Part shown: piece by piece, positions 9,601-32,202 of the stretch
Layout of the letters: every line of letters starts with the position of its first letter
How positions within the stretch are numbered: the first letter of the stretch is position 1
DNA from: Flavobacterium lindanitolerans
GTDB lineage: Bacteria; Bacteroidota; Bacteroidia; Flavobacteriales; Flavobacteriaceae
Length of the DNA stretch: 64,000 bases
Assembly: GCF_002846575.1 (NCBI RefSeq)
Contig: NZ_PJND01000007.1
Span: forward strand, 1,550,001 to 1,614,000
Direction of reading: 5' to 3'
Position numbers and translations under genes: made by a program
Notes under the pieces: model-generated
The model's input: the letters and a program-made list of their open reading frames with translations, nothing else
What the model was told of the DNA's origin: nothing
Database searches by the model: none

Positions 9601-12600
9601 CAGTGTACCACTACCACTGCTACCTCCTGATGATGTCCAGATATAGCTTACTGGTGCATTTTGGTAGGTGGTAATTCCAAAATGCAGGCTGGTGGGCGTG
9701 CTTTGGCTTTCAGAAGATCTGCTCATATCCCAAACGGTAACAAACGGTCTTCCGCAGATAGTACCGCTTGGGCTGTCGCCAGTAATGGTCCAGCCTTTGG
9801 TGGTGGTCAGCGATGTACGTGCTGCTAAGGCACTGGTGCCGTATTGTCTGTATAAAGCTCCAAGGTTACGCCCTGAGGGTGTATTGGAATTGGCTGCCCA
9901 GCCTCTGAGCGTTGCAGAATAATTGGTACAATCCAAACCCGACTGGCTCAACATATTAGTCATTTTTACAACAGGATTCAGTTGCCAGTCACCTATGTTT
10001 TGGTTAAATGACTGAGCTCCCTGAAACATTGCTTCCATAGTTGTTACGTTTGCTGTATTCCAGTTGCCTATGTTCTGATTAAATACCGGATTACTTCTAA
10101 ACATCTCCTCCATATTGGTTACGTTTGCCGTATTCCAGTTACTGATGTCCTGATTAAATATCGGACTCTCTCGAAACATATAACCCATATGGATCACGTT
10201 TGCTGTATTCCAGTTGCCTATGTTCTGATTAAATACCCAGGCGTTCCAAAACATTCCCCCCATAGAGGTTACTTTTGCTGTATTCCAGTTACCTATGTTC
10301 TGGTTGAAGACCTGTGTGTAAGAAAACATACTTCCCATATTGGTAACATTTTCTGTATTCCAGTTGCCAATATTGCCATTAAAAGCGTAGGCATATTGAA
10401 ACATGCCTTCCATGTTGGTTACCTTTGACGTATTCCAACTGCCAATCTCTTGATTGAAAACCAAAGCAAATGAAAACATCTTTGACATATTGGTTACGTT
10501 AGCTGTGTTCCAGCTGCTGATGTTCTGGTTAAATGCCTGAGCAAACTGAAACATTGCTTCCATATCGTTCACCTTTTCGGTATTCCAGCCGCTGATATTC
10601 TGATTGAAGGCTGAGGCTCCTCTGAACATGTAAGCCATGGTGGTTACATTTCGTGTATCCCAATTGCTGATGTCCTGATTGAAACGGGTTGCCCTGCTAA
10701 AAACCTGAATCATATTGGTTACATTTGACGTGTTCCAGCTTCCTATGTTGGCCGGACCAGTGAGTGAGGAACAGTCCGCAAACATGCTTCTCATATTGGT
10801 TACCCTGCTCAGGTCTGGCATGTCTGTAGCTGTAACATCGAGGTTAGAACACTGTACAAACGCATTTTGCATACTGCGCCATTCAGCGGTTCCCCATTGG
10901 GCAACGTCGATAAGGCGTGGGTCGTTAAAGACACTAAAAGCCGCCAGATTCTCAGGTTTTACGTGAAGTGTAATCGTTGGCTTATTGGCGGGTATGGTAA
11001 TTTGAAGGTTACCCGAAGTAGTAACGGTGCCACTACCGGTGCTGCCATCGGGCGCTGTCCAGAAATATCTGACCTGATTGTTTGGCGATGGTAACGTAGT
11101 AATGTTGATCGTTATCCTTGTATTGGTACTTGCTTTGGTCATGTCCCATACGGTAATAAAATCTCCGGTAGCATTGGTGATGGTAAAATCGGCTCCGGTA
11201 TAGCTAATGGTATAGTTAGCTGCTGATAAGGTTCCCTGTGTAATGGGATAAGTGCCCATGGCTTCACCAATGGCTCTTTGCAAAGTGCCAAAAATTACAG
11301 CCGGAGTATCGCCATTTACCAATCCGCTGGTGGTAAAGGTCAGTACCGGATCTGCCGTGCCAAATTCTTTTGACCTGGCGTCGGCTGTTACGTTTAAAGG
11401 AGCTTTGTTTATCGTTAGTCTAAAAATAACATCCGGAGCCGGAGTATATATTTCATTTCCGGGCTGTTTTGCGGTAATATTGACTTGTCCTGCTTTTTTG
11501 ATTTTTAGTTTCCATTTGTTGTTGTCTGCACTGTCCCTAAAGGCTTCTGCAATACTGTTATCTGCGGAAATATAGCTGACTTCCAGACCGGAACTTGCCG
11601 TGGCCGTTGGCACAAAAGGTATATCGCCGTAGGTTTTGACCATATCGGCTACTGTAATGGTTTGTGAACGTCCGCAACTTTGCCCGCTAGGGCTGTCTCC
11701 AATAATAATCCAGCCTTTGGTGTTAGTCAAAAAGGTTCTTGATGCTGTGACATTGTTGCCATATTGTAGGCCCAATGTTCCAAGTCTGCGTCCGGCAGGC
11801 GTGTTTGGATTGTTGGCCCAGCCATTCAGTGTTGCTGAGTAGTTAACGCAGTCTAAACTGGATTCATCGAACATACTACCCATATTTACAGAAGCATTAA
11901 GCTGCCAGTTACCAAGGTCATGATTGAATCTACCTGTTCTGTAAAACATCTCTCTCATATCTGTTACGGAAGCTGTATTCCAGTTGCTCAAGTTTTGATT
12001 AAAAACTTTGGCATTCTGAAACATATAACCCATATTGGTTACGTTTGCCGTATTCCAGTTGCCTATGTTTTGATTGAAGGTATAAGTATAACCAAACATA
12101 AAGTCCATATTTTTTACTGAAATGGTATTCCAACGACTGATGTCCTGATTGAAAGTTTCTGCCTGATAAAACATAGCACGCATATTGGTCACTTTTTTAG
12201 TATCCCAGTTGCCAACATTCTGATTAAATGCTTTTGCGTCTTGAAAAAGACCTTCCATAGTAGTCACATTCGCTGTATTCCAACTGCCTATATTGCCGTT
12301 AAAAACGAAAGCCTGCTTAAACAAAGCGGACATATCGGTTATGTTTTCAGTATTCCAACTTTCTATGTTGGGAACGGTTTGAAGTTCCGCACATCCGTAA
12401 AACATCCCCTTCATGCTGCTTACTCCTGTAAGATTTGGAATATCTGTAGCGGTTACTCTTAGGTAAGTACAAGCTAAGAATGCATTTTCCATACTTTTCC
12501 ATGCTACGTTACCCCATTGAGAAATGTTCACAAGTCGTTTTGGCTCAATTTGGTTAAAAGCGGTGAATTCAGGTGCTATACTTAATGTAATTAATTCATT

Positions 12601-13101: not shown

Positions 13102-13974
13102 CTTTAAATCAATTTAATTTGTTCTCAATCCCGATTCTTTATAGGAATCATTAAATTAGAAGCTATTCCAGACAGCGATTGCTGTAGAATTGCTACAAAA
13201 GGGACTCATAGACAGATGCGGAATTGTTTCCGAAAACTGCATAATCAGTCGAATGCTATTAAAGATGAGTAAATAAAAATACGCTACCGCGGAACCGCAG
13301 GACTGGGTTTCCGGTTAAGGGTTACACGCTTAAAATTTTTAGATAAGGCAAGACTATTGAATTTCGAAACCTATTTCGATTGGATGTAGGATGAAATCAT
13401 ATTGTATGCTTTTGAACGGATGTAATCCGTCAAAACAGTTTGCTTGCAAGAATGGGAGTAATTCTTATCTATAACTGATAAAAGGTAATAAGGCGCCGTT
13501 TATTTGTTTCCATTTTTGAGGTTCCGGACATCCCTGTTGTGAGGAAGACTTTGATAAAATCTAAATCATTTTGGCCTGTAAGTGTTTTCATATGTGCTTA
13601 TTTTCAGGGTGTAAATATATAGAGAATTTAATTACATGACCTAGCGGTTTAATCTTTTTAACAGTAAGTTAACCGGTATTTTTAAAATAATTAACTTTAA
13701 AAGTAAGTATTTTAAGGTATAAACGTTAATGTTTATAATATAATAAAATATGATGCTTTTCAATTTTATGGTATTGCAATTGTTCATGATTTTGTTGTTT
13801 TATATCCAAAACTATTTCTTTTGAAAAGAAGTTAAACGTTGCTAAATCACATAAAAGAATACCTGTCAAAACGAGATTTTTGAATCTGCAAATTGATAAT
13901 GGATTGTATCTTTATTCCTGTTTATCCTTTTACGTATATTTGGCATAAAAGCAAAATAAGCCTTTGCCATTTTT
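13102..13974. other. 873-bp non-coding region between the giant gene and the SDR gene
   Basis: No convincing gene is present. The stretch is AT-rich toward the right. It contains a long imperfect inverted repeat at about 13411-13434 (ACGGAT-gta-ATCCGT core extended by TTTTG/CAAAA) and a candidate promoter for the SDR gene near its right end. I did not find a clear -7 box close to the start of the giant gene on the minus strand. Confidence 0.5.
13911..13942 (+). promoter_or_regulatory. Candidate promoter for the SDR operon
   Basis: A TATATTTG box at 13935-13942 matches TAnnTTTG. A TTTA element sits 21 bp upstream at 13911-13914 in the expected -33 place. The start codon follows 32 bp downstream. 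Confidence 0.4.
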
Positions 13975-17176: not shown

Positions 17177-20100
17177 TTAAAAAAAATCTCCTTCTTCACT
17201 TTTAGAAACATAAATTGGTTGCGCAGGGAAATAAGTCTTGATCTTTTGAAAGTAATCCTTCCTGAGTATTAAGTCGGTTCCTGTAAGCTTTGGAATTTCA
17301 TCCCGGAGGTTATTGTGATATCCGTCTCCTGTGTAGTCGCAGCTCCAGGTGCGCATTTTTAGCACAATTTCACCCTCATGGTTTTTTGCTACTAAGCCTT
17401 GCTGCGTCCGCACTGTACGCAAACCAAGCTGCGTAACCAGGCTGGGATTCAACCACAATATCTTGAAATTCTCGATCGGGTCGTCCTGCAGTATAGAAAA
17501 TATAATGTTTTCATCAATTTCAAAATCAATGTTTCGCCTCCACCAAAGTTGAAATGGAAATGGAGAGTATCTGGAATAAGGCAGCCGGTTTTTTTTAGGC
17601 GCAGATGAAAAAACAACGGCTCCGTAGGATTTATAGGCTTCAAGTTTGAAGATAGCACCTTCATGCAGTTCATTCTCCTGGTGCGCAATCCGGATCCAAT
17701 CGGGTTGTTCGTCTATCAACGAGTGAGTTGAAGTTACTTCCATTTCCTGAGGCCGTTTCAAGTCAGTAGGCCGCAAACCAAATGCATTGCCATGCGTGGC
17801 CATTGCATCGATTGCAAGCATCAACCCATAAGTTAAGCCCTCCTCAGAATCCATTTCTGACCAATCTCTCAGTTCATCGTAATGATCTTCATTGAGTATT
17901 CTTTGCTGGTGTTCTGCGAAGTAAATATGCGGAACCATTCTTTTATGCGCACGGTTTGCATACGCTTCAAAAATATCTTCGTAGCTGGTAGCATAGGTTT
18001 CGCTGAACTTGCTAAAAGCCTGTTCCAGGTCCACTCCGAAGTCCTCGTAGATCCTGAACCTACGGTTCATATTGAAAAGATAGTTGTAATGACCTTCTGA
18101 AATAGATGGATAAGAAAAACTAGGGTTAAGACTGATCTGACTGACCTTTAAACCATATAATTTTGCGATGATCAAATCGGTGTGAAAATACCTAGACGGA
18201 AAGCCTTTTTTGAGCTGTTCTTCAAAATGCTTATGAAAGTTACGGTCTTTGTCTTTCTCGGCCATGATGAACTGAAGGATGATGGATTCCGTTGATTTTT
18301 CAAACAGTTTCCTGTTCTCGAAGAACCATTGAAATGGTTTGATCAGCTTTTCAGGTTGCCTTTCCAGAAACATTTCCAGAGCAGCGGTTGTCAACCGATA
18401 TCTTTCAATGGTGTTTGCACGGTAACGGCAGATCAGTATTGACAGCAATATTTCTTCATCATTCATTTCCAATGGGTTGCCCGCTTCCTGTTGCCAGTCA
18501 ATCTGGTCCTGGGATGGCAGGCGATAAGAGGTCATGGTCATCAAATTTTGCCACATCATTTCGATAGTGTTATTGTCGTAGCCAAGATCCACAAGGAGTT
18601 TAATCAGATTAGCTGAAAATTCACTGCTGAAACCTATTTCCAAATAGGCCGGAAGTAGTTCGAAAAGATGCGTAAATGCCATTTCGGGGTTGAGCGCATG
18701 TGCTTTGACAAACGCTTCCTGATTAACAAACTTCTGGAACCAACCCCCGCGGTCATTGAGGAACCTGCAGACCCAGTAATAGCACTCGATGTCATTGCCG
18801 GTAGCAAATACATCATCTAGGCTGAGCTTGCCGGAATACCTGTTGTTGTTTTTGTTGACAATAGTTGAAACCAGTTCTTTCAAAGAATCTGTCAGTTCCA
18901 GAAATCCATCCAGTACATAGCCCAGTGAATTGAGGTCGCCGGATTGAAGTTTGTCTGATTCAAAATAGGCAAGCAATTCGGTTTCACTCATGTTAGAAAA
19001 CTCGGCCCTTTCTACCAGATGATCATACCAATGTTGCTGTTGGCCTGTAGAATAGTTTCGATCATTTTTGTATTTAACCTGTCCAAAGGACTTTCCCAGG
19101 GTCTGGTTGTACTCGCTGACCAGGACGTCACTCCGGTGCCTGTTGTTTCTGGGTCTCATGGCAGGAATGATCCTGGCAGCTAATTTTTCCGCAAGGGCAG
19201 GATTATAGGGCAGTAATTTATGATAAAGGTTCAGACAGTATTGTATGAAATCACTTCCGTCACGTACTGGGAAACTCAATGCGAGCCAGGCTTCCAGTTC
19301 AGGATTTACCGATCCGTCAAGTTTTACCAGCAGATCTACCAGTGAACCTTCCGCCCGCCAATCGTATCTTAAAGCAACCAATTGATGCAGCAGATATACC
19401 ATAGATTGGGACAGGTCAATTTCGAGGAAACTTTTAAACCAGAGTTCAGGAAAGTACGCGGTTTCCTTGCCGTCGGTATGGTCAACGGCTGAATCGACCA
19501 TCATTCTGCTCAACCGGAGCGTTTCGTTGATATTTACAGGTGATACTCTAGCATAAGCCTTTACTCCTTCTATCACATCGACCAGCGTCATATCCTTTCT
19601 CATGGTATAGGCGAGCGCAAATTGGATAGCCTTTTGGAAATAGCCCAAAGCTCTATCTTTATCCTTGGATAAGGCGGCGATAGATGCCAGTCGAAGGTTG
19701 TATTCAGCAATGTCACCATGCAGGTGATATTCTTCCTTTTGTTCAGTGATGCTTTCAAAAACCTGGTTGATGTAGGCTATATTTTCTGGGCAGGCATATT
19801 CAGAAAGCATCCCGAACAGCTTGTCGGTTGTCAATGGTCCGGTATTGGTCCTTTGAATACTGGTGGCAACATTGTTGCTGACTTCAACCAATGTGTCGAT
19901 CGTTTCTTTCCACTGCTGCGAAGTCTTCAGGAAATTCAGCCCCTGATGAATTGAGTTCAGGATGATGCCGTGGATGGAGTACAGATCGCAGGTTCTAGGC
20001 TTACCACGAAATGGTTCAGTATCGTATGCCAGGTAATCAAATGCCGATTTGACATCAGCATAGGCAGAGTCCGAATTGACCCTCATGATCTTTATTGTAT

Positions 20101-22822
20101 AAATCAACCAGTTATAAAACCAATTTTTGCCTTTGAAAAGCTTTACTAAAACCTCATGCAGCTCATCATCATTACTGTGGAGACGACTGACCTCTATGAA
20201 TTTTATGATGATATCCTCTTCTTTATGGAACACATTGTCGAAACTGATGATTTCTCCAGCTAGCCTGATGATCTCATCACGGTCAACTGCGACAGAAGGA
20301 GCTTCCTGATAATCGATGATTTTGGCAATCGCTGGAAATTCCGATTGCAGTTCTTTGATCTGGCTTTGATTTTTAAACAGCTTGAATTCCTCCCTAAATG
20401 TTTCACTCAGCTCACCTTCCCCAATTTTCAGCAATTTTTTCGCAATTTTGGCAATCCGCTTTCGTTCATCCAGTACAAGCATCCCCCTCAAAAAATATTT
20501 GAACTGTTCCTGTTTAACTGGCTTTCCGGGCTTGAAAAAATCCATATACACGCTCCAGGGAGCTGCCGAGCCATTTTGATCACATATATAACAGGCCTGC
20601 AAGCCTTTATAAAGGCTCATGGTTGGCAATCCGTCAAAAAGCAGGTATTCACTGACAGTGCCATAGCCAAATATTTTGCCCAGGGTCTCGGCGTAGAGTG
20701 AGAACATTTCGTCAAAATCCTCCGCGCAGCTGTGTATTACTTTGTTGATCTCATTGAGCAGGATGATGTTCTTGAAATCCTTGCTCCGGCAAGCAGAGTC
20801 AACGAAGTATTTATAATTCCTTTCGATCAGTTCCCAGGAATAGCCGTTGATTATACTATCGGTTACAAAGGTGTGGTTAAGCAATGCGAGGGTTTCTGTA
20901 TAATTGTCCCCTTCAAACAAAAACTGTAGAAAATACCGGTAGCTTTTGCGGTAGGTAAAGAAGTCCTTGGTTTGGAACCACTCTTGAATGGGTTTGAAAA
21001 TCTTTTTTTCTACCGGGATGTTGCGTGACCTGAGATGCTCAAGAATAAACCTTCTGAAACTTTCATGGTAGATCCTGTAACCACTTTTAGTCAGGTTCAG
21101 GGTTAGGACTGGTGACAGGATCTTTAGAGATTCATCAACATAATCACCTGCGAGGGTAATCTCCTGCAGTTCGGTTTTTGTTAAACTAAAGCTGACTCCG
21201 GAAAGCACCTGAGGCACTTCCTCCCTGGTGTTTAGCTGACTGAGCAGATACTGGTAATACTGGCTGAGGTTAAATGAATAGTCTGGTAGCAGCCGAAGTT
21301 CGGCTAGGGTTGGATTTTTGCGCTTTTCTATGTCATCCAGAAGGTACTTCAGGTAAAGCGGGTTGCCATTGCTCTTTTCCAGTAAAAACCGGGATAGCTT
21401 TAGGTCCTTCGTTAAAAGCAGGTTGTTGATATCCCGGTTTTTGAGGAGTCTTTTGATATCGGTTTCTTTCCAGTCGGGCAAACTGACAATCTCGAATTCA
21501 TTAATCAGTCTGAGTTGATCAATATATTGCGAGGTTACTACAATTTTTACATTTGGAGAGGCTTTTAGCTTGGCGATATTTTCAATGATCGCAATGTCCT
21601 GCTTGCTGATATTTGAATAGTTCCGATAGGTCGCAATCCGCTCAATATGATCAAGGCCGTCAATGAAAACGTAGGTTGGTTCATCAATATGGAGCAGCAA
21701 CCTATTCAGTTCGTTCAGATTGCTGGCGAATTTTTGTTCTTTAATTTCTTTCAGTCTCGGAAATGTTTCAATAAGTTCAGCAATCAGGTTTCCATAAAAT
21801 ACATTGACTTTGATCCTTTCCTGTTGATAAGAGTCGTCAAGTTTGGTATAGCAGTAATGCCGGACAACCTTAGCCCCATGCTTACGGAGAATTTTGGTCA
21901 GGTTTTCTACGAACCATGATTTTCCGCTTCCGGGTTCACCGACCAGGATTACTTTGCTTTTTCTCTGAGTATCCTTAACAAACTCATTCAGTTTGGTCTT
22001 CCTCAGGACATTTTCATGTTCCACGATGGGGAAGTTTTGCGCTATTGATCCATAATCTGTGACCAGATTGAGTTCATGGAATAAATTGCCGGAGCTGATG
22101 TTTTGCCCCCTGCTTCGGGATCTTTTGATAATCGCAAGCAGCGTCAGGACGAATGTTTCCACCCTCCAGTGATCGTTGGGAAATATTCCAACACCCAAAT
22201 TTCTGGCTTGGTTAAGTACTAAAACTTCCAGCTCTCCGGGCTGATCTAAATTGAGGCTCAGTTTGGGCATCTCTACTTCGATCATCATGGCCTTACAGAA
22301 TTGCAGAAAGTTGTCACGATTTATATTCTGGGATTCCGCTTTGAAGCGTCTCCATGAACTTAGCGGCTCAGCATTTTCGGGCCATATCCTTGCTCCGTCA
22401 ATCTCGTAAACCGTAGTCTTATGATTGCTGAATGTTCCGATCCCACTTTTTTCATTCAATATCTCCAGTAATGTGTCTTGGGGCGGTAGCCAGGACAAGC
22501 AGATGCGAAATTCTGTATTTTCCTTCTGCGGATTGTTTTGCCAGGCCTTATATAAAGTGTCTATGGAAAGCTGGTAGGCCGTTTCACTGGACAGATCATT
22601 TTTGCAAAGGCGGTGATTGCTGTCAGCGTTACTGTATTTGATCTGTTTTTTAAATTTTTTGTCCTGCCGGATTATCGTCAGGTCATCAATTTTATCGTCG
22701 GCGAACTCTTTTCTGTCAATGAAGAACTCACTGACGTTTTCATTCAATATTTCCTGGAGAATAAAATAGCAGGTCAGCAGATCCTGGTATTCATATCCTT
22801 CGTGTGCATTTGAAAGTGCCAT
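17177..22822 (-). CDS. Avs-like STAND NTPase with N-terminal Cap4-type (DUF4297) nuclease
   Basis: An 1881-residue protein. Residues 1-110 resemble the Cap4/DUF4297 dsDNA endonuclease: GYEYQDL near the start, Asp46/Asp47 in IDDLTI, and the QIK motif at 60-62, a D...QxK version of the PD-(D/E)xK site. A STAND/NACHT-type NTPase follows, with Walker A GEPGSGKS at 295-302 and Walker B YVFIDGLDHIER at 384-395. From about 600 to 1600 the chain is helical, like a TPR-type sensor array, and a distinct C-terminal domain ends it. This layout (nuclease, STAND ATPase, large helical sensor) matches AVAST/Avs antiviral proteins, which recognise phage proteins and then oligomerise to activate the effector. 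It is encoded alone. By eye its GC is higher than that of the neighbouring operon. Which Avs type, if any, is unresolved. Confidence 0.72.
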   Translation of the reverse strand: MALSNAHEGYEYQDLLTCYFILQEILNENVSEFFIDRKEFADDKIDDLTIIRQDKKFKKQIKYSNADSNHRLCKNDLSSETAYQLSIDTLYKAWQNNPQKENTEFRICLSWLPPQDTLLEILNEKSGIGTFSNHKTTVYEIDGARIWPENAEPLSSWRRFKAESQNINRDNFLQFCKAMMIEVEMPKLSLNLDQPGELEVLVLNQARNLGVGIFPNDHWRVETFVLTLLAIIKRSRSRGQNISSGNLFHELNLVTDYGSIAQNFPIVEHENVLRKTKLNEFVKDTQRKSKVILVGEPGSGKSWFVENLTKILRKHGAKVVRHYCYTKLDDSYQQERIKVNVFYGNLIAELIETFPRLKEIKEQKFASNLNELNRLLLHIDEPTYVFIDGLDHIERIATYRNYSNISKQDIAIIENIAKLKASPNVKIVVTSQYIDQLRLINEFEIVSLPDWKETDIKRLLKNRDINNLLLTKDLKLSRFLLEKSNGNPLYLKYLLDDIEKRKNPTLAELRLLPDYSFNLSQYYQYLLSQLNTREEVPQVLSGVSFSLTKTELQEITLAGDYVDESLKILSPVLTLNLTKSGYRIYHESFRRFILEHLRSRNIPVEKKIFKPIQEWFQTKDFFTYRKSYRYFLQFLFEGDNYTETLALLNHTFVTDSIINGYSWELIERNYKYFVDSACRSKDFKNIILLNEINKVIHSCAEDFDEMFSLYAETLGKIFGYGTVSEYLLFDGLPTMSLYKGLQACYICDQNGSAAPWSVYMDFFKPGKPVKQEQFKYFLRGMLVLDERKRIAKIAKKLLKIGEGELSETFREEFKLFKNQSQIKELQSEFPAIAKIIDYQEAPSVAVDRDEIIRLAGEIISFDNVFHKEEDIIIKFIEVSRLHSNDDELHEVLVKLFKGKNWFYNWLIYTIKIMRVNSDSAYADVKSAFDYLAYDTEPFRGKPRTCDLYSIHGIILNSIHQGLNFLKTSQQWKETIDTLVEVSNNVATSIQRTNTGPLTTDKLFGMLSEYACPENIAYINQVFESITEQKEEYHLHGDIAEYNLRLASIAALSKDKDRALGYFQKAIQFALAYTMRKDMTLVDVIEGVKAYARVSPVNINETLRLSRMMVDSAVDHTDGKETAYFPELWFKSFLEIDLSQSMVYLLHQLVALRYDWRAEGSLVDLLVKLDGSVNPELEAWLALSFPVRDGSDFIQYCLNLYHKLLPYNPALAEKLAARIIPAMRPRNNRHRSDVLVSEYNQTLGKSFGQVKYKNDRNYSTGQQQHWYDHLVERAEFSNMSETELLAYFESDKLQSGDLNSLGYVLDGFLELTDSLKELVSTIVNKNNNRYSGKLSLDDVFATGNDIECYYWVCRFLNDRGGWFQKFVNQEAFVKAHALNPEMAFTHLFELLPAYLEIGFSSEFSANLIKLLVDLGYDNNTIEMMWQNLMTMTSYRLPSQDQIDWQQEAGNPLEMNDEEILLSILICRYRANTIERYRLTTAALEMFLERQPEKLIKPFQWFFENRKLFEKSTESIILQFIMAEKDKDRNFHKHFEEQLKKGFPSRYFHTDLIIAKLYGLKVSQISLNPSFSYPSISEGHYNYLFNMNRRFRIYEDFGVDLEQAFSKFSETYATSYEDIFEAYANRAHKRMVPHIYFAEHQQRILNEDHYDELRDWSEMDSEEGLTYGLMLAIDAMATHGNAFGLRPTDLKRPQEMEVTSTHSLIDEQPDWIRIAHQENELHEGAIFKLEAYKSYGAVVFSSAPKKNRLPYSRYSPFPFQLWWRRNIDFEIDENIIFSILQDDPIENFKILWLNPSLVTQLGLRTVRTQQGLVAKNHEGEIVLKMRTWSCDYTGDGYHNNLRDEIPKLTGTDLILRKDYFQKIKTYFPAQPIYVSKSEEGDFF

Positions 22823-23021
22823 ATTTATTTGATTACGTTAAGTAAATTAATTTCAAATCTTATTTCTTTATTATCCTATTATCGAACGATCCTACCACCA
22901 TTCTAAATCTAGTTCGGATAGGCCCTGACTAACGTTTTAAATCCATGGGGAAGGCTAAAAAGACTTTCTCTCTGAAGTGATAAGGCGGCCTGGATTCTAG
23001 CTGAAGTTCCTAGTGGTACTT

Positions 23022-23285
23022 CTAAGCAGCGAGTATGATTTCCATACAGGCTTTTTCAGCTACAGCTTTTTGTTCAGCATTTTTTGTCTGTGAAACAGTC
23101 ATTTTTCTGCAATGTAATAGGCCATCCATCTGCCCAGGGTATCCCGGCGGAGTACCTTGATCAATACTATCCTGCCACTCATCAAAGCTTTCATCTTTGG
23201 GTCTGAATTTAATTTCAGGTACCTCGTCCATCCAATCGGATATCCAGTACCCATCCTCTCGGATGGTAACCTGGTCTGCCAGCAT
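23022..23285 (-). pseudogene. Small hypothetical gene, probably truncated by an in-frame stop
   Basis: The intact part encodes 87 acidic residues without a known domain (WISDWMDEVPEIKF, PGYPGQMDG). The same frame continues upstream through EYNSWEG, meets a TGA at 23307-23309, and then stays open with protein-like sequence back past an ATG at 23354 (MIAALRLLRSSPLLE). One nonsense change would therefore have split a roughly 110-residue gene that started 29 bp after the GHKL gene's stop. It may instead be translated from 23285 as a shorter protein. Function unknown; its place suggests a third gene of the helicase-GHKL operon. Confidence 0.45.
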
Positions 23286-23382
23286 TCCTTCCCAAGAATT
23301 ATATTCTCATTCCAAAAGGGGGCTGGACCTGAGCAGGCGTAAAGCAGCGATCATCACCGCGTGCTTATTATACTGGACGTGC

Positions 23383-26300
23383 TCATAATTCCTGTGGTTT
23401 TTCAAGTTTCATAAAATATAGTTCAGGGTCTTTTTCGTTCACATTGAATACTCTGGCTAAATAATAGGCTTCATTATCATTGGTTTCAAAAACAAATTTC
23501 CACTCCCTTGTACTTATCGGCATAGCAATGTGATCAGCATTGGATATATCGGTTATGGTAGCCTTTACCTGTATGTATATGGTATTACCATTGCTTAACT
23601 TGGCTTTCAGGTCATACTTACCACCAGTGTCAACGATGTAATGCTTTTCTCCTTCAAAATCAATTATGGAATTATTATTTTCAGTTTTCGAAAGGTTTAC
23701 CCAATCTACTTCAAAATTCTTTTTCTTTAGCTCTTTATAAACAAATGCTTCACCCTTCCAGCCATTTTCGAAGTTTCTTCTTGTCTGTTCCTCATCAGGT
23801 TCATAGCTCAATTCGGGATTCCAGCCTTTGCTTAATTCTTCAAGTTCCAGTAAGCGCTCTATCTTTTCAGAAGTTAATTCAGGATGATCTTTCAAGATTG
23901 ACAGAGCAGATTCAAGATTTATATCTTTGGATATAATTGCAAGCTCTTTAATTGTTTCTGCTTTAGCTCCCGATTTTACTATGTCAGCAAAATCAGCACT
24001 CATGCCACTTTTTAATATTTCATCAAATTGATTTCTTTCTTCTAAGCCATAAGTGTTTAATACAATGCCTGATCTTTTGCGATTGAAACTTTTAAATAAC
24101 TCATCCATACGTGTAATCGTTTCCTTATGCGCAGAAATCCATTTGTCCAATTCTCTGATTGGTTGTTTAACGCTGTCATTATTTTGCTCTTTTATAACAA
24201 CATCATCAAGCTGGCTGCAAATCCACTTGAGATCACGATTGTCATTCAATTTTATAGACACACCATTATGTAATAAATTTCCCCTGCATTCCACACCAAA
24301 ATCTTTAAGAATGTTCTTTAACTCAACAGGTATGTTATCATCATTAAAGATTTCGCTATTAAATTTGCATAACTCATTTAACTGGTTTGGAATAATTGCA
24401 TATTTGGATAATAAATGATATTGATTATTTTCAAATGCGATGGAAAATTGAATAAGATCATTAAGAAAGACATCAAGAGGATACATTTGGTCCTTTTCAG
24501 CTTCTGAGTATTCATCTTTCACCTCTGGATAGTTTACGTTGAAAAGATGCTGAGAGAGACCATTTAAGTCGACAAGCTCTGAAACTTTTTTGAGAATCGT
24601 TTTAATTGCCCAAAGTTGACACGGTTTATAATCAAAATCATCTAAACCTGTGACTTCTTCCAACTTATCATTCACCTTATCAGGAAAGATACGTGCTGCA
24701 AACCTATGAAGCGTTTCAAAATCAGCTTCTGAGTCAGTAAAAGAATAGCCAATAAGTTCGAATAATCCTTCATTCAATTGTATTTCTTCTTCCTCTTTAA
24801 GCTTTCCTGAAAACGACTTCTCTATTTTGTCTTTAATTCTGTCTGAAGCATGTTTTATTGTCAACTTACTTTCTCGCTCGAATATGGTCATCTCATTCCT
24901 TACCAATTTCTCATACCAATTATCTCCGGTAGTTCTCAGTACATTTTTAATTTGAAATGGAACATTTATATCCCTACTCAAATCTTTCTTTTCCCTAAAG
25001 ATTGATTCGGGTGTTTGATCAGGAAAAACTTTTAATGGGTTTTCTTTTCTATCCAATAACTCTTTGTTTTCATCTTCTGCAAACTGGATAATTTTATTTA
25101 ATGCGCTAAAGGCCTCTTCATTGGTAGAAAAGTATTTCTTGCTGAATTCAGTAAAATTACCCTCATCCTGAATAAGTAATAAAAGCTTTTCAAGAGTAAA
25201 ATCAAAGTCTGCGCCTAACCAGCTTTCTGTATTAGCCTCTATAATATTCTTCCATATCTCTACATCATCTTTCCGTGGAATTTTATCACCTATAAGATAT
25301 TGACACAATGCCCAAAATTCATCCAGCTTATCACTACTGTATATGGGGAACTTTGCATCTTTAGGTTTAATACGTGTAGTGCTGTGTTCCGTTGCTACAA
25401 TATCGGCATCTAAAATTTCTTTCCTTATCTCCTGTTGTATGTTTTGTTGATACCAAATCTTATCAACATCAATAGGTAAATCGGATTTAGCCAAATAATG
25501 AATATTTTCCCATTTCTTTTCACTCGCAAAAGAAAGGAGCTGTTTATAGAGTCCAATAGATTTCTCAAATATTGCTCTATTTAAATGAACTTTCTTATCA
25601 TATTGAAAACTCCCTGATAGATTAAGAGACACGCTACTTCGTGTATCATCTGCTGGATTAAAAAGAGAGCTATTAATGATTACGGGAAATGGAAATGTTT
25701 CAGAGCCAACCAATGGAAATGAAATGAATTTACGTGGTGTTGCTTCATTAGGAAAAAGTATCTTGTATTTGCTTTCTCCAATATTTTCAACTGGTATAGA
25801 AATCGTTAAGGCACCATGCTTTTCAGAAACCTTTGCTATTTCGATAAGAGCTTTATCATTTTCGGTTTCCTTTTCAATTCTTACAATGGAAACGCTATCA
25901 AATGTTAAGGGTTTTAATTTAGTATATGTAGTTACCTTTCCATATTCTATTACTTTAACACTATTGATCTTTTCAACAAATGAAAGCGTAAAGGGAATTG
26001 ACTTATGAAGGTCTGCAATTCCAATTTCTGCTGTTTTCTTTCCTTCGGCATCATATTCATAAACAAACTTGGTGTAACATTTACTACCTTCTTTATAATC
26101 ACTAATATTGTTTTCTGTATCGTTTGATTGTTCCAGTTCTGTAAATGAAGCAAAGGATTTCTTTACCTTCTCTTTCATCTGATCTGGAGTTTCTGCTTCC
26201 CGATCTAGAGAAATAAAAAAGGATTTTATTCTATCACTTGTTGTATAAATACTCTCAAGAGAAATCTTTTTACTTAACAAATAAGTGGTCATGAAACCTG

Positions 26301-26694
26301 TGCCGAACCGACCTGAAGTGTTAAGGAACTTTTTTGCATCGTCATTATTAATACCTTCTTCACTAAATAAGCGATCAAAAAAGGTCTGTTTTTCATCATC
26401 AGTATAACTTGGGGCTTTAGTAGAACGCTGGCTGAGTATTGCCAGCAAATTACTATGTTGAAAGGGGCTTCCATTATGTGAAAACTCAACGGCTGAGTCT
26501 GTTAAGTTTATCTCAATTTGCCCATCATCAGTGATTACATCTTTGGCATTTTGCAATAACTCCCAAACCCACCTTCTTGCACTTTGAGGATCCCCTGATA
26601 ATTCAATGTTGATGTTATTGTAAAGTTTCTGTCCAATACTTTCCAGCCCTTCCTGGGCTAAAAGCTCTTGAGTACGCATTTGGTTTTCAGGCAT
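23383..26694 (-). CDS. GHKL (HSP90-like) ATPase with C-terminal DUF3883-type nuclease domain
   Basis: An 1103-residue protein. The N terminus is a GHKL/sacsin-type ATPase: N-box WELLQNAKD at residues 44-52, a modified G1 region (SHNGSPF at about 72-78) and the G2 box GRFGTGF at 128-134. The long middle part has no domain I recognise. The C terminus (about 970-1103) resembles DUF3883, with GKYDLKAKL followed by IYIQVKAT (Gln1042, Lys1044), a D...QxK pattern of the PD-(D/E)xK nuclease fold. GHKL-DUF3883 proteins are common in defence islands. It follows the helicase gene after 43 bp on the same strand, so the two are an operon and probably act together on foreign DNA. It is AT-rich. Catalytic activity is inferred, not shown. 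Confidence 0.75.
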   Translation of the reverse strand: MPENQMRTQELLAQEGLESIGQKLYNNINIELSGDPQSARRWVWELLQNAKDVITDDGQIEINLTDSAVEFSHNGSPFQHSNLLAILSQRSTKAPSYTDDEKQTFFDRLFSEEGINNDDAKKFLNTSGRFGTGFMTTYLLSKKISLESIYTTSDRIKSFFISLDREAETPDQMKEKVKKSFASFTELEQSNDTENNISDYKEGSKCYTKFVYEYDAEGKKTAEIGIADLHKSIPFTLSFVEKINSVKVIEYGKVTTYTKLKPLTFDSVSIVRIEKETENDKALIEIAKVSEKHGALTISIPVENIGESKYKILFPNEATPRKFISFPLVGSETFPFPVIINSSLFNPADDTRSSVSLNLSGSFQYDKKVHLNRAIFEKSIGLYKQLLSFASEKKWENIHYLAKSDLPIDVDKIWYQQNIQQEIRKEILDADIVATEHSTTRIKPKDAKFPIYSSDKLDEFWALCQYLIGDKIPRKDDVEIWKNIIEANTESWLGADFDFTLEKLLLLIQDEGNFTEFSKKYFSTNEEAFSALNKIIQFAEDENKELLDRKENPLKVFPDQTPESIFREKKDLSRDINVPFQIKNVLRTTGDNWYEKLVRNEMTIFERESKLTIKHASDRIKDKIEKSFSGKLKEEEEIQLNEGLFELIGYSFTDSEADFETLHRFAARIFPDKVNDKLEEVTGLDDFDYKPCQLWAIKTILKKVSELVDLNGLSQHLFNVNYPEVKDEYSEAEKDQMYPLDVFLNDLIQFSIAFENNQYHLLSKYAIIPNQLNELCKFNSEIFNDDNIPVELKNILKDFGVECRGNLLHNGVSIKLNDNRDLKWICSQLDDVVIKEQNNDSVKQPIRELDKWISAHKETITRMDELFKSFNRKRSGIVLNTYGLEERNQFDEILKSGMSADFADIVKSGAKAETIKELAIISKDINLESALSILKDHPELTSEKIERLLELEELSKGWNPELSYEPDEEQTRRNFENGWKGEAFVYKELKKKNFEVDWVNLSKTENNNSIIDFEGEKHYIVDTGGKYDLKAKLSNGNTIYIQVKATITDISNADHIAMPISTREWKFVFETNDNEAYYLARVFNVNEKDPELYFMKLEKPQEL

Positions 26695-26737
26695 ATTTGA
26701 TGATTTTGTTTCTAAATAATATTTTCAATTATTTTCA

Positions 26738-29700
26738 TTATTCACTGGTCATTACAAAGAAGCTATTCCCTGTCTTTTTTAATAGTAAATCAGTTGCTCC
26801 AAGTAATTTCAAGTGTTCTGTTTCTTTTTCAATAGCCTTTTTAGAAATACCTGGTTGCACAACATAGATATTGAATTCAAGTTCACAATATCCTGATGTT
26901 ATCATATTTAATAAGGTATTCATTTCTTCATCCCCGCCAATTTCGTATCTACTTGTTTTTCCTTGGTTAATCCGTGAATTTTGGCGTCTAACCATATGTT
27001 GCAGAAGCTCATAAGTGGTATGTCTCCAATGAAAGCTTCTTTGTGCTTGACCACAAACCTCATATAGATCCTTTAAGCGACCTCCACTTTGTGATTTTGA
27101 TGAAAACTTACAATGGTACAAGTCTATTTTTATTCTGCTGTCGCCACCCTCCCAAAATTTTATCGCTACAATATCACTCGCTTCATTGGCATCATCGTCG
27201 TCAAATATTATTTTATAATCAGTATTAGATTTTAGCTTTTCAATAATATGATATTGAATTGAGTCTGCTCTCTTTTCCTGTTTTTGTGATTCTTTCCGAA
27301 TGTCTGTACCTGTCCATTCTAAAGCAAGTATTTTGGAGGTATCAAAAAGGTTGATTTTCCCTTTAAAAGGAAAGAAGATATTATTATACATTTTGGAATT
27401 GTCATGGAACCAAGTCACAGGAGGAAAATCATAAAATAATTCTGCTATATCTATTTCGTTTCCTTTGTAAGTAATTACAAAAGGCATAGTTCCAACCAAT
27501 TCATATCTATAACCACGTCCAATCTTGGGATCTAATACAAGTTTATAGTCGATGGCATTCTGATTCGACTCTATCGAGAATTCAACATAATCACGGCCAT
27601 AAGAGTTCAATTTAACATTAAAATCAACTACAGGAATACCTCTGTGCAAAGTCATGGAGGTATAAGCATATAATTCTTCGTTCCATTTCATGGCTACAGG
27701 AACTTTGTTCGCAGGAAGTTCTGTAATCAATTCTGGTTTCTGAATGAATTTGAAAATGTCTTGTGTATCTATGGAATCATCCAAAAGCTTGTTACCAAGA
27801 CTATCACACCATTGGCAGAAATCGGGAATACTTTTCACCAATTTAGTCCAAACTCTACCTTTGGAGGAGCAACCAATTGTGACCTTATCTCCATTCTCAT
27901 AGCCGACTCCGAAAAGATTTGAACTGGATTTAGTATCCTTGTCCAATTCATCCAGACCACTCACGATAGAATTCCCTGCATACATAGTGAAACTGATGGG
28001 ACCATCTAAAGTAGACTTTAAACCTAAATTAAATAGCTCTAATTGAAATACTCCATCCAGGCACTTATAGATATCAGCCTCATTAAACAAACTTTTATTG
28101 GCACCTACAATGGCTTCGGCAAGTTTATCATGTGTTGTTCCATTATTTGTACTGTTTATATAGAGTAGTTTCTGTTCTTCGTTCAGATATACTATATAGA
28201 GATCATATTGACAGTTTAGCAAATCGTCTATTTTCCCCCATTTTACAGGATCCACTTTTTTTGCAACAATAACGAGTAGATTTTTTTCTTCATGTTCTAC
28301 TGATACTGTTTCATATTTTTCTTCATTAAAACAAGATGTATAATTCTGTGGTTCCCATTCGATCTTATCATCAAATAACCTGAAGACAACTGTGCTCATC
28401 GCTGGCGTTATATTTCGCAATGGAATTTTTGCCGGGATCTCAGCATCTGAAAAATTCTGAAAAAAGTCTTGTTCTTCTTTTACTGAGCCTATTATATCTT
28501 CATTCGCCATACTGATAATTTTATCCCAGTCCGAATCTTTTTGATATAATTTTTTCAAAGTCCCCTTTAGCTCCGGATCTGCAATATTGGCTACTATAGA
28601 CGCATTGCCCAATTTTAATATTGATTCGCGCGTAAACCTTCCAAAGAACTGAAATGAGGTTGTGATGTTTTTATGCAAATCGTGCAATGCACAAATTTTT
28701 AACTGAGGAAGGTCAAATCCTTCTCCAAGCATATCTACACATACAATTATTTTATGTTTTCCCGCAATAATGTCTTCCAATATTTTCTTGCGAATTGTCT
28801 GTTTAATACCACTATGAATAAATACCGGATTGTACTTCTGATATGGTTTGTAGATTTTTTCAAACACCTCTTCAGCTTTAGACATTGTATCCACCCTTGC
28901 CATCAGTATATGGTCGTATTTTTCCTCTATATCTTTTTCCAAAATGGAAATTGCTTTCTCTGCAATAAGTTGATCAGATTTCAGAGGGTTAAATTCTAGA
29001 ATAGGATGAAAAACAATTTGTTTGTAATAATTGTCTCTTTGGGCGAGTGAGAGGGGATAATCATAAATCACCTTACCTTGTAAACGTTTCTTGTCATTTC
29101 TAAATGGAGTCGCCGTGAATAACAAAATAGGTTTATTAAAAGTTTCAAATTGTACTTTAATGTTATTCCACTCTTTTGCCTGACTATGGTGTGCTTCATC
29201 CATAATTAAAAGATTGCACCAATTAAGCAATGCCCCCTTTATTTTCGTATCACCACTCAGTATCCCTGTAATTATTTGCGGAGTGGAAATAATTACATTT
29301 GATTCAAACAAAGTATTTGCATCGTCTATGCTTTTTATACCCGTTTTTAGGAAACCTACAATAGGGTTTTTGGCAGAAGAGGAAACAATCTGAAACCTTT
29401 TATCTTTGAGAACACCCAGAGATTTGAATTTATTGAAAATTTGGGTTCTCAATGAGGCCGAGGGAACGACTACCAATAAGCCCTGACACTTTTCTGCTAT
29501 AGTTAAGCATAGCATTGTTTCAGTCTTACCTGTTCCAGTAGGCATTACAACTACAGCAGGTTTGGTTGAAATACTCCAATGTGAGAGGATGGAATGTAAT
29601 GCACCAATTTGTGGAGGTCTAAGTCCAAATTGAGTAATATTACCAGTTTCATCTTTGACTTCCTTTTTGTAATTAAATTTCCCTTCCCAAGTCTGAAGGA

Positions 29701-30025
29701 TATTTTTGTGATCAGGAAGTTTTATATACTCTGCTTTCTTTTTACATTTCGAAAGAATTGCAATGGTCAGTTTTTCATACTCTTCAAGCAATGTGAATAC
29801 AGCATCATAATTTTGTGGGATCTGGCTTTTAATTGTTGAGATAAAATACTTTGAACCATTTTCGGAAAGAAATTCATATCCTGAAAACTTACTTCCATTA
29901 AATTTCCTTATAATGCCTTGTTCAACTCCAATATAATATTCTTTTTTATTGCCGTTGATACTTTTTATATATGTACAATTGAAAATAATTTCAATTTTTT
30001 CCTCCGGAAATAGGCTGTTCATCAT
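26738..30025 (-). CDS. DEAH-type superfamily 2 helicase, probable defence protein
   Basis: A 1095-residue SF2 helicase. After an N-terminal region of about 135 residues come the Q-like segment FGLRPPQIGAL, Walker A MPTGTGKTE (161-169), DEAHH (276-280), motif III FTATPF (about 303-308) and, in the second RecA domain, GEGFDLPQL and the arginine-finger motif QFFGRFTRES. The remaining 550 residues form a large C-terminal region without a domain I recognise. It shares the overall plan of helicases in defence and type I/III restriction systems but is not an obvious HsdR, HamB or DISARM protein. Its gene is first in the operon with the GHKL-DUF3883 gene. It is transcribed divergently from the recombinase across a 239-bp region with a palindrome. 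Confidence 0.78.
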   Translation of the reverse strand: MMNSLFPEEKIEIIFNCTYIKSINGNKKEYYIGVEQGIIRKFNGSKFSGYEFLSENGSKYFISTIKSQIPQNYDAVFTLLEEYEKLTIAILSKCKKKAEYIKLPDHKNILQTWEGKFNYKKEVKDETGNITQFGLRPPQIGALHSILSHWSISTKPAVVVMPTGTGKTETMLCLTIAEKCQGLLVVVPSASLRTQIFNKFKSLGVLKDKRFQIVSSSAKNPIVGFLKTGIKSIDDANTLFESNVIISTPQIITGILSGDTKIKGALLNWCNLLIMDEAHHSQAKEWNNIKVQFETFNKPILLFTATPFRNDKKRLQGKVIYDYPLSLAQRDNYYKQIVFHPILEFNPLKSDQLIAEKAISILEKDIEEKYDHILMARVDTMSKAEEVFEKIYKPYQKYNPVFIHSGIKQTIRKKILEDIIAGKHKIIVCVDMLGEGFDLPQLKICALHDLHKNITTSFQFFGRFTRESILKLGNASIVANIADPELKGTLKKLYQKDSDWDKIISMANEDIIGSVKEEQDFFQNFSDAEIPAKIPLRNITPAMSTVVFRLFDDKIEWEPQNYTSCFNEEKYETVSVEHEEKNLLVIVAKKVDPVKWGKIDDLLNCQYDLYIVYLNEEQKLLYINSTNNGTTHDKLAEAIVGANKSLFNEADIYKCLDGVFQLELFNLGLKSTLDGPISFTMYAGNSIVSGLDELDKDTKSSSNLFGVGYENGDKVTIGCSSKGRVWTKLVKSIPDFCQWCDSLGNKLLDDSIDTQDIFKFIQKPELITELPANKVPVAMKWNEELYAYTSMTLHRGIPVVDFNVKLNSYGRDYVEFSIESNQNAIDYKLVLDPKIGRGYRYELVGTMPFVITYKGNEIDIAELFYDFPPVTWFHDNSKMYNNIFFPFKGKINLFDTSKILALEWTGTDIRKESQKQEKRADSIQYHIIEKLKSNTDYKIIFDDDDANEASDIVAIKFWEGGDSRIKIDLYHCKFSSKSQSGGRLKDLYEVCGQAQRSFHWRHTTYELLQHMVRRQNSRINQGKTSRYEIGGDEEMNTLLNMITSGYCELEFNIYVVQPGISKKAIEKETEHLKLLGATDLLLKKTGNSFFVMTSE

Positions 30026-30173
30026 GACTTAAATTTAACATATTTACAAGTCAGATATCAACTATTATATTTTTCCTATGACCTTATTGGTTTATATTCT
30101 TCAATCAATCTAAATATACAGACTTTCAACAACTTGTATTACCTACAAATATATTAAAAAAAGAAATTGAGCA

Positions 30174-30191
30174 ATTACGGAAAACCGTATT
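30174..30191. promoter_or_regulatory. Palindrome in the divergent helicase/recombinase intergenic region
   Basis: TACGG-AAAA-CCGTA is a perfect 5-bp inverted repeat, extended to about 8 bp with one mismatch. It lies between the divergent helicase and recombinase genes and could be an operator for a DNA-binding regulator. No such regulator is encoded nearby. Confidence 0.3.
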
Positions 30192-30264
30192 TACACAATA
30201 ATTTCAAGAGTTTAATTGCATAATTAATTTTCCATTAATACGCTCACGTTATTATTAGAAAATT

Positions 30265-31911
30265 ATGTCAACAGCAATTATTTACATCCGTGTCAGCACA
30301 GACGAACAAGCACAAAAAGGATACTCTCAACGTAGCCAAGAAGAAAAATTAAATAAATATTGTAGAGACAATCATATTGAAATTGTCCAGACCATATTTG
30401 AAGATCATTCGGCAAAAAACTTTGACCGACCAGCCTGGACTTCAATGATAAAAGAATTAAACATGAATAGAGCTACAAGACCAAACCTTATTCTATTTAC
30501 TCGCTGGGATAGATTTAGTAGGAATACAGCAAATGCGTATTATACAATAACCCAACTTCAAAAGATTGGAATTGAACCCCAAGCTACAGATCAACCTTTG
30601 GATATGTCAGTACCTGAAAACAAAGTATTATTAGCAATGTATATAGTCACAGCAGAAGTAGAGAATGACCGAAGGTCTTTAAACATTAAGCAAGGCATAC
30701 ACAAAGCCAAAAAGGAAGGAAGATATATGGGGCGAGCACCTATAGGTTATCTCAATATATCGTTACCAGATGGCACAAAAACAATCGTACCCCGTGAGCC
30801 AGAGGCAACATTGATCAAAAAGGCATTTCGAGACTTCGATGAAAATATATCAGTTCGTTCTTACCACAAAACCGTTCTTAGAGGTGGGTTAAAATGTAGT
30901 TTAAATGCTTTCTTCAATATACTTCAAAATCCAGTCTACTGTGGTAAAATAAGAGTTCCATCTTTAAATGGAAAAACTATAGTAGAGGTTCAAGGAATCC
31001 ATAAACCTTTAATTTCAATAGAAATTTTTGATGAAGTACAATCAAGAATTAAACGACGCGACAAAAAATACATTAAACAAAGCGACAATAGTGAGCTTAT
31101 GTTTAGAGGAATACTCAGTTGTCCTCTTTGTTCAAAAAAAATGTCTGGAAGTGGTTCAAAAGGAAGGTCCAAAAAGTACTTTTATTATCATTGTTCTTCT
31201 TCTTGTGGTTATCGAGTAAGGGCAGATCAAGTAAATGAAAACTTATTATCAGGGATTCGTTTGCTAAAACCAAATGTGGAATATACTCCAATTTTCGAAG
31301 ATCTTATCAGAAAGATTTATGGCAAATTGTACGAACAAAAATCTATTGATAAAACCAATATCAATAGATCATTATATAAAATGATAGAACGAGTTGCTAA
31401 TGCAAGGGAACTTTTAGTAAAAGGTACAATTGACGAAGAAGATTACCATTCAATAAAATCAGACTGCGAAAATAGAATTGGCATCTTAGGCACACAACTC
31501 AATGATGCTTATAAACTTGATATACAGCAGAAGCAGAGTTTAAAAAAGCTTACGAAATGTTTCTTAAAGCCCGCTCTTATTTTTCGTGGTACAGACAATT
31601 CCATAGAATTAAAAGTTGCTTCGTTGTTCTTGAATAAAGATTTTGTATATAGCGATGCCGACTTTACAAGTCACTTGAAAGATGAGGTTCGGATCGTTTA
31701 TGTATCTCAGCACTCTAATACAAAAGAGAACTTTGAAGAAGCAGGAGTCATTAAAAACATTAGCAAAGAACAAGAAGATATAATCTCGAATGTTATAGAA
31801 ATTGAACTAATCAAAGGGAATAAAATATCAACTCAAAATGCCACTAAGGTTTTATCCTTCCTGTTAAAACTTGCAGAAATTTGCATTTCTATCAAAATCA
31901 AGATCGGTTGA
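30265..31911 (+). CDS. Large serine recombinase (integrase)
   Basis: A 548-residue site-specific recombinase. The N-terminal resolvase-type catalytic domain begins with YIRVSTDEQ, with nucleophile Ser11 and the Arg cluster TRWDRFSRN at about 79-87. The Recombinase domain follows (about 155-265), then a zinc ribbon with Cys286, Cys289, Cys310 and Cys314, and a coiled-coil region (about 340-430) of the kind that controls the direction of serine integrases. All key parts seem intact. Such enzymes insert and excise islands and prophages; here it is the likely agent that moved this island. It reads toward tRNA-Pro, and the DNA between them may hold one attachment-site half. Confidence 0.92.
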   Translation: MSTAIIYIRVSTDEQAQKGYSQRSQEEKLNKYCRDNHIEIVQTIFEDHSAKNFDRPAWTSMIKELNMNRATRPNLILFTRWDRFSRNTANAYYTITQLQKIGIEPQATDQPLDMSVPENKVLLAMYIVTAEVENDRRSLNIKQGIHKAKKEGRYMGRAPIGYLNISLPDGTKTIVPREPEATLIKKAFRDFDENISVRSYHKTVLRGGLKCSLNAFFNILQNPVYCGKIRVPSLNGKTIVEVQGIHKPLISIEIFDEVQSRIKRRDKKYIKQSDNSELMFRGILSCPLCSKKMSGSGSKGRSKKYFYYHCSSSCGYRVRADQVNENLLSGIRLLKPNVEYTPIFEDLIRKIYGKLYEQKSIDKTNINRSLYKMIERVANARELLVKGTIDEEDYHSIKSDCENRIGILGTQLNDAYKLDIQQKQSLKKLTKCFLKPALIFRGTDNSIELKVASLFLNKDFVYSDADFTSHLKDEVRIVYVSQHSNTKENFEEAGVIKNISKEQEDIISNVIEIELIKGNKISTQNATKVLSFLLKLAEICISIKIKIG

Positions 31912-32084
31912 AAAAAAGAAAATATTTAAAAGCGTGGACATGGTTCGAATCCTTTAAACATATTCCCATATTCTTGACTTTTGACTCAAAATAAGCTCAA
32001 AAATACTGATATGGTGATTCTTTAATTAAAGGGAATTTTTACAGGAAGCCTTGCTATAGTAATAAAAAAGGGATTAAAATGAAA

Positions 32085-32120
32085 AATGGCACCATTTGTC
32101 TTCCAATGGCACCATTTGTC
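32085..32120. repeat. Two 16-bp direct repeats next to tRNA-Pro
   Basis: AATGGCACCATTTGTC occurs at 32085-32100 and again at 32105-32120, spaced by TTCC. Each copy contains the inverted arms AATGG and CCATT. It lies between the recombinase gene and the 3' end of tRNA-Pro. It may be an attachment-site or regulatory element; no second location was seen in the window. Confidence 0.6.
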
Positions 32121-32127
32121 GTTTTAG

Positions 32128-32202
32128 TCGGGGTGGCAGGATTCGAACCTGCGGCCTCCTGCTCCCAAAGCAGGCGCGATAACCGGGCTACGCTACACCC
32201 CG
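32128..32202 (-). tRNA. tRNA-Pro (anticodon TGG)
   Basis: On the minus strand the acceptor arms CGGGGTG and CACCCCG pair fully. The anticodon arm is CCTGC-TTTGGGA-GCAGG, giving TGG, and the T arm contains GGTTCGAATCC. Discriminator A is followed by CT, so the CCA end is not encoded. It sits at the right edge of the island, upstream of trxB and on the opposite strand. Confidence 0.95.

Follow-up and report, generated by a model that had tools for sequence, protein, structure and literature searches.

A probable low-GC serine-recombinase cassette beside tRNA-Pro/trxB with two probably self-contained defence proteins, the Tiamat protein TmtA and a helicase-nuclease

A helicase gene and a GHKL-nuclease gene lie side by side in the 64,000-nucleotide stretch of DNA analysed here (the window), which is part of the 3.7-Mb genome of Flavobacterium lindanitolerans. 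We consider it likely, at a rough probability of 0.7, that they encode two self-contained defence proteins, TmtA and a helicase-nuclease, carried on a serine-recombinase cassette beside tRNA-Pro/trxB, and that they are not a new two-gene system. An earlier note on this DNA had proposed an undescribed two-gene module; it described the anatomy correctly and was probably right to suspect defence, but the 1103-aa protein is the TmtA of PADLOC, and the homologues of this gene and its neighbour were neither adjacent nor associated where this was testable, which is evidence against an undescribed two-gene system.

Both open reading frames were found to be intact and exactly where the earlier note had placed them. 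The helicase gene comes first (positions 26738 to 30025, reverse strand) and encodes an SF2 protein of 1095 aa with a RadD/XPB-like motor, an unassigned middle region and a probable C-terminal PD-(D/E)XK nuclease. It is followed on the same strand, after a gap of 43 bp, by the TmtA-type gene (23383 to 26694, reverse strand), which encodes a GHKL ATPase and a NOV_C domain in 1103 aa. A scan for sigma-70-type promoters gave 31 sites compared with 31.7 in shuffled sequences, which is no excess.

The two genes share their base composition with a divergent gene for a 548-aa CcrB/XisF-like serine recombinase (30265 to 31911, forward strand), which matched Pfam Resolvase, Recombinase and Zn_ribbon_recom above their cut-offs and NCBIfam CcrB under its cut-off (E 1.5e-33). 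At 33.6% GC, the stretch from 23383 to 32122 (8.7 kb) is the poorest in GC among 277 stretches of the same size in the window, compared with 38.3% for the window as a whole, 41.4% to the left of the cassette back to udk and 37.7% to its right. The individual genes have 33.9% (TmtA), 34.3% (helicase) and 33.7% GC (recombinase), and the STAND gene on the left and trxB on the right 42.9% each; single genes elsewhere can be equally GC-poor, as is divIC outside the cassette (33.3%). Between the STAND gene and tmtA lies a stretch of 560 bp without an open reading frame (22823 to 23382), of higher GC and with stops in all six frames, perhaps a gene remnant. In 200-bp windows the GC content falls from 48% at 23200 to 36% at 23350, at the end of tmtA, which places the left edge of the cassette at about the right end of this stretch. 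On the right, the variable region ends at tRNA-Pro(TGG) (32127 to 32202, reverse strand), near whose 3' end conservation with relatives resumes.

Eight stretches from relatives were compared at this site. In two of them, trxB/tRNA-Pro stands next to the udk-divIC-mcmA homologues, directly in L158 and with one 123-aa open reading frame between them in L156; other genes follow trxB/tRNA-Pro in five, and the contig ends in one. The site between udk and tRNA-Pro/trxB is therefore variable. The genes that flank the extra DNA of the window (about 2.9 to 32.1 kb; 2858 to 32126) are neighbours in L156 and L158, and we infer that within this extra DNA a cassette of about 8.7 kb comprises the recombinase, the helicase and tmtA, and that the large serine recombinase probably moves it. 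In holding a large serine recombinase within DNA of distinct base composition, the proposed cassette is SCC-like. Between its two presumed edges no direct repeat exceeded 8 bp, and no tRNA-end or other attachment repeat was found; serine-recombinase sites can be short. As far as the available parts of the texts go, Tiamat is almost always chromosomal in Actinobacteria (PMC10482375) and lies in genomic islands and island hotspots in Pseudomonas (PMC12629846).

The variable site holds other genes as well. The STAND NTPase (17177 to 22822, reverse strand; 1881 aa) lies outside the low-GC cassette and has an Avs1b-like NTPase region and a very weak N-terminal match to a Cap4-like nuclease (E 0.35). 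Further left is a gene for a 3166-aa surface protein (3601 to 13101, reverse strand) with DUF285, MBG, SprB and secretion-tail domains. Among the relatives, tandem arrays come after the tRNA-Pro that lies beside trxB in L159 (5741 to 7523; 350 bp repeated 5.1 times) and L160 (8429 to 10597; 358 bp repeated 6.1 times), and L154 has a single open reading frame of the same kind (13678 to 13929). Each array unit combines a duplicate of the tRNA's last ~35 bp with a small open reading frame (81 to 124 aa as called) that by eye resembles a GIY-YIG (UPF0213) protein. These arrays resemble self-inserting elements with a tRNA gene as their target.

Tiamat, the known anti-phage system of TmtA, is said to have been described by Millman et al. 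in 2022. The 1103-aa protein matched the PADLOC model PDLC03967 (TmtA, Tiamat) with an E value of 3e-126 over residues 21 to 1049 (profile positions 21 to 948 of 1063), GHKL N-terminus included, and by this model match it is TmtA, with a predicted function. Its GHKL/sacsin-like ATPase part (25915 to 26694, reverse strand; about residues 1 to 260) carries the GHKL ATPase motifs of Tiamat and matched NCBIfam NF047352, sacsin SR1, Hsp90 and Top6B; NCBIfam sacsin_N scored above its cut-off (E 2e-16), and Pfam HATPase_c weakly, under its own (E 0.16). In all 28 aligned sequences the N-box residues E45, N49 and D52 are unchanged, as are H73-N74-G75, G131 and G133, which bears out the N-terminal GHKL domain of the earlier note. 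The N-terminal half of the predicted model resembles Hsp90, topoisomerase VI-B and sacsin, in a fold search that mainly covered the GHKL half (residues 1 to 503), and the TmtA profile found no solved structure by sequence at E 0.01.

The D...QVK motif that had been read at the C-terminus was likewise confirmed. This part of the protein (23386 to 23793, reverse strand; about residues 968 to 1103) is a probable PD-(D/E)XK nuclease with D1028 and Q1042xK1044; Pfam NOV_C (PF13020) matched residues 1022 to 1093 above its cut-off (E 1.2e-7), and D1028 and K1044 are kept in 26 and Q1042 in 24 of the 28 aligned sequences. The DUF3883 of the earlier note we take to be the same domain as NOV_C, and some relatives are named DUF3883 by their sources where Pfam gives PF13020. 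The plant NO VEIN proteins, for which PF13020 is named, are eukaryotic, and Tiamat calls on plant sequences have been reported in the available part of one text (PMC12409356).

The helicase matched Pfam ResIII (residues 133 to 309), DEAD (138 to 310) and Helicase_C (377 to 466), and the positions checked in Walker A, DEAH and motif VI were invariant in all 26 aligned sequences, the window's included, in agreement with the DEAH helicase first recognised here. In its predicted model the motor fold is nearest to RadD, FANCM and XPB/RIG-I-type helicases, with RadD and FANCM as the top matches; these matches mainly covered the motor (residues 113 to 507) and left most of the C-terminal half outside, and searches of solved structures by sequence returned motor matches only. 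The C-terminal ~550 residues had been described as unassigned, which stands for the middle region but overlooked the end. There (26741 to 27313, reverse strand; about residues 905 to 1095) E948, D951, H971xK973 and Q993 are invariant in 26/26 aligned sequences, and residues 923 to 1001 of the model have the order helix-strand-strand-strand-helix (alpha-beta-beta-beta-alpha). The conserved residues and the predicted secondary structure together suggest that the C-terminus is probably a PD-(D/E)XK nuclease.

No PADLOC 2.0 model covers the helicase specifically. Its best match there was PbeA (E 1.8e-13), over the helicase part only, and its match to HamB was weak (E 1e-7). No HamA/DUF1837 match was found in the four proteins scanned (17.2 to 31.9 kb), and the PADLOC scan of these four gave no Hachiman, Zorya, Druantia or restriction-modification (RM) assignment beyond weak domain matches, as the earlier note had expected. 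The same check, which that note had proposed, thus placed the 1103-aa protein in a described system and left the helicase without a specific model. Hna, in the available part of its description (PMC13381803), is an 845-aa, DinG-like single protein with an N-terminal SF2 motor and a C-terminal PD-(D/E)XK domain. The window's helicase is also a single protein with an N-terminal SF2 motor and a putative C-terminal PD-(D/E)XK; it differs in its length of 1095 aa, its RadD/XPB-like motor and its large middle region. Hna was considered as the helicase's family and dropped, by this comparison of descriptions, for its 845 aa and DinG-like character. The fold search gave no DinG-titled match among the 50 listed.

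The best 120 of 2865 helicase homologues (E 0.001) have at least 37% identity, nearly all over at least 87% of the length, and distant generic helicases may sit among the remainder. For both proteins, the closest relatives (up to 95 to 96% identity) are metagenomic.

To survey the pairing, two peptide patterns were used to find TmtA loci in named genomes; of the 227 obtained, the best 80 were kept (best identity 42%), and L078 was dropped for want of a TmtA frame above 80 bits, leaving 79 TmtA-type loci. The window's helicase family was found beside TmtA in none of these 79, of which 64 have at least 3.5 kb upstream and 47 have it on both sides, except for a weak match in L064 (59.7 bits, a level that any helicase might reach). 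Conversely, TmtA was downstream of the helicase in 0 of 28 loci from genomes, plasmids and viral contigs (7 of them from the same genus, 21 others), all with 3.5 kb or more of downstream sequence. Excluded as shorter were L083, L084, L096, L098, L101, L102, L104, L107 to L110, L113 and L123, several of them short versions of counted loci; L106 is without a strong helicase.

Association at the level of the genome was not seen either. Within the genus (398 genomes per search, at thresholds of 1e-60 for TmtA and 1e-150 for the helicase), TmtA was found in 22 genomes, the helicase in 8 and both in the window's own genome only, a test that is weak alone since 0.4 shared genomes, the window's own excluded, would be expected by chance. 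The helicase occurred in 1 of 39 TmtA-positive genomes, compared with 4/199 and 5/395 in general draws that each included the window's own genome, and TmtA in 1 of 7 helicase-positive genomes, there about 2.3 Mb away on the contig. The longest-contig sizes of at least 120 helicase and at least 97 TmtA homologues had no value in common, a comparison made by eye that is weak with one contig per cluster. These counts refer to the loci and genomes fetched, and the closest, metagenomic relatives of both proteins lie outside them. There is no conserved helicase-TmtA pairing in the loci read. Since one gene belongs to a described system and no adjacency tendency appeared in the loci read by the co-occurrence survey that the earlier note had called for, its two-gene claim is, on its own terms, half refuted.

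That the two genes form a functional two-component system, with the helicase sensing or remodelling foreign DNA and TmtA cutting it, is unlikely; such a partnership would be recent, specific to the lineage and fixed on a single cassette. The genes are adjacent and co-directional, 43 bp apart, within one low-GC stretch, an arrangement that also fits an operon working and moving as a unit, and the pairing of a helicase with a nuclease would recall HamB-HamA of Hachiman as the partial texts present it. Against this stand the 79 TmtA-type and 28 helicase loci without adjacency and the missing genome-level association. Both proteins moreover come with an ATPase and a probable nuclease of their own, and neither should therefore need the other's activity. 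A literature search over partial texts, with few subscription papers among them, found no published TmtA-helicase pair and no Schlafen partner of Tiamat.

The TmtA loci point to a different association. A Schlafen AlbA_2-type gene, sought one open reading frame to either side, adjoins the TmtA-type gene in 37 of 62 loci without detected NOV_C (between L026 and L080) and in none of 10 NOV_C-positive loci (Fisher p 0.0003, kinship ignored), a count that omits 7 of the 79 loci for lack of a downstream open reading frame (1 NOV_C-positive, 6 negative) and in which some 'negative' proteins of more than 1200 aa may hold a diverged domain. The Schlafen neighbours are 278 to 411 aa long, apart from one of 565 and another of 227; the two scanned by Pfam both contain AlbA_2, and that of L026 also TIR. 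The TmtA proteins of L029 and L026 match PDLC03967, are without detected NOV_C and have an adjoining Schlafen gene, whereas the window copy has NOV_C in cis and a helicase upstream. Most simply, TmtA would be a sensor that works either through a nuclease in cis or through a Schlafen-type effector in trans, the window copy belonging to the self-contained kind. The 52 neighbours of 11 NOV_C-positive loci matched 32 PADLOC families, including RM and reverse-transcriptase models. No TmtA was confirmed among viral contigs.

Defence genes also surround the helicase family. At E 1e-20, 205 PADLOC families (families, not proteins) were matched among 99 neighbours of the helicase from 18 loci of several phyla, compared with 1 among 72 controls from six Flavobacterium-like stretches. 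The neighbours vary and include Septu, Hachiman, Hhe, RM and DRT genes, with a HEPN protein in L086 and a type IIG methyltransferase in L087, so that in the loci read the helicase resides in defence islands but has no constant partner. That both families neighbour defence genes, when set against the control, agrees with what the earlier note had said of GHKL/DUF3883 proteins and SF2 helicases. By homology the family may be described as unnamed, widespread single-protein helicases, probably nucleases too, of defence islands, without a specific PADLOC 2.0 model.

Several further neighbours of helicase relatives were noted. A UG5-type reverse transcriptase lies beside the helicase in L111, and DndH/HerA- and AAA-type genes in L113. 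In Dyadobacter sp. CY356 a 1956-aa protein (L162, 2632 to 8502) adjoins a helicase relative and shares an NTPase region (23.7% over 376 columns, E 5e-12) with the STAND protein of the window.

It is quite unlikely that the helicase is a RadD-like repair or housekeeping enzyme and TmtA alone is defensive. The motor fold, nearest to RadD, FANCM and XPB/RIG-I-type helicases, would suit such a role, and one plasmid copy adjoins radA. RadD and other SF2 motors, however, match mainly residues 113 to 507, and the family is patchy (8/398 same-genus genomes) and found in mobile settings, on plasmids (56 records) and viral contigs (13 loci, one weak), and its neighbours include Septu, Hachiman, RM and DRT genes. 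It is also unlikely that the pair is a recent two-part variant of Tiamat, of a lineage otherwise metagenome-only so far; in such a variant, loading of the helicase-nuclease on phage DNA would license the nuclease of an ATP-clamped TmtA, and the two nucleases would act in turn.

Under the preferred reading of two self-contained proteins on one mobile cassette, the ~8.7-kb unit (about 23.38 to 32.12 kb) would have entered the variable site by tRNA-Pro/trxB through its Ccr/XisF-like serine recombinase. A phage signal might then be sensed by TmtA, whose Hsp90-like GHKL domain would close on ATP and thereby activate or position the protein's own C-terminal NOV_C nuclease. Separately, the RadD/XPB-like SF2 motor may load on a DNA structure and feed DNA to the helicase's own C-terminal PD-(D/E)XK domain, in the manner of Hna but not as a member of its family.

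These results remove one candidate two-gene system and leave two leads, a helicase-nuclease family and TmtA as a sensor chassis. The mechanism of Tiamat is given as unknown in the available part of a 2026 review (PMC12926258), and the split between effectors in cis and in trans, if true, would help to explain it.
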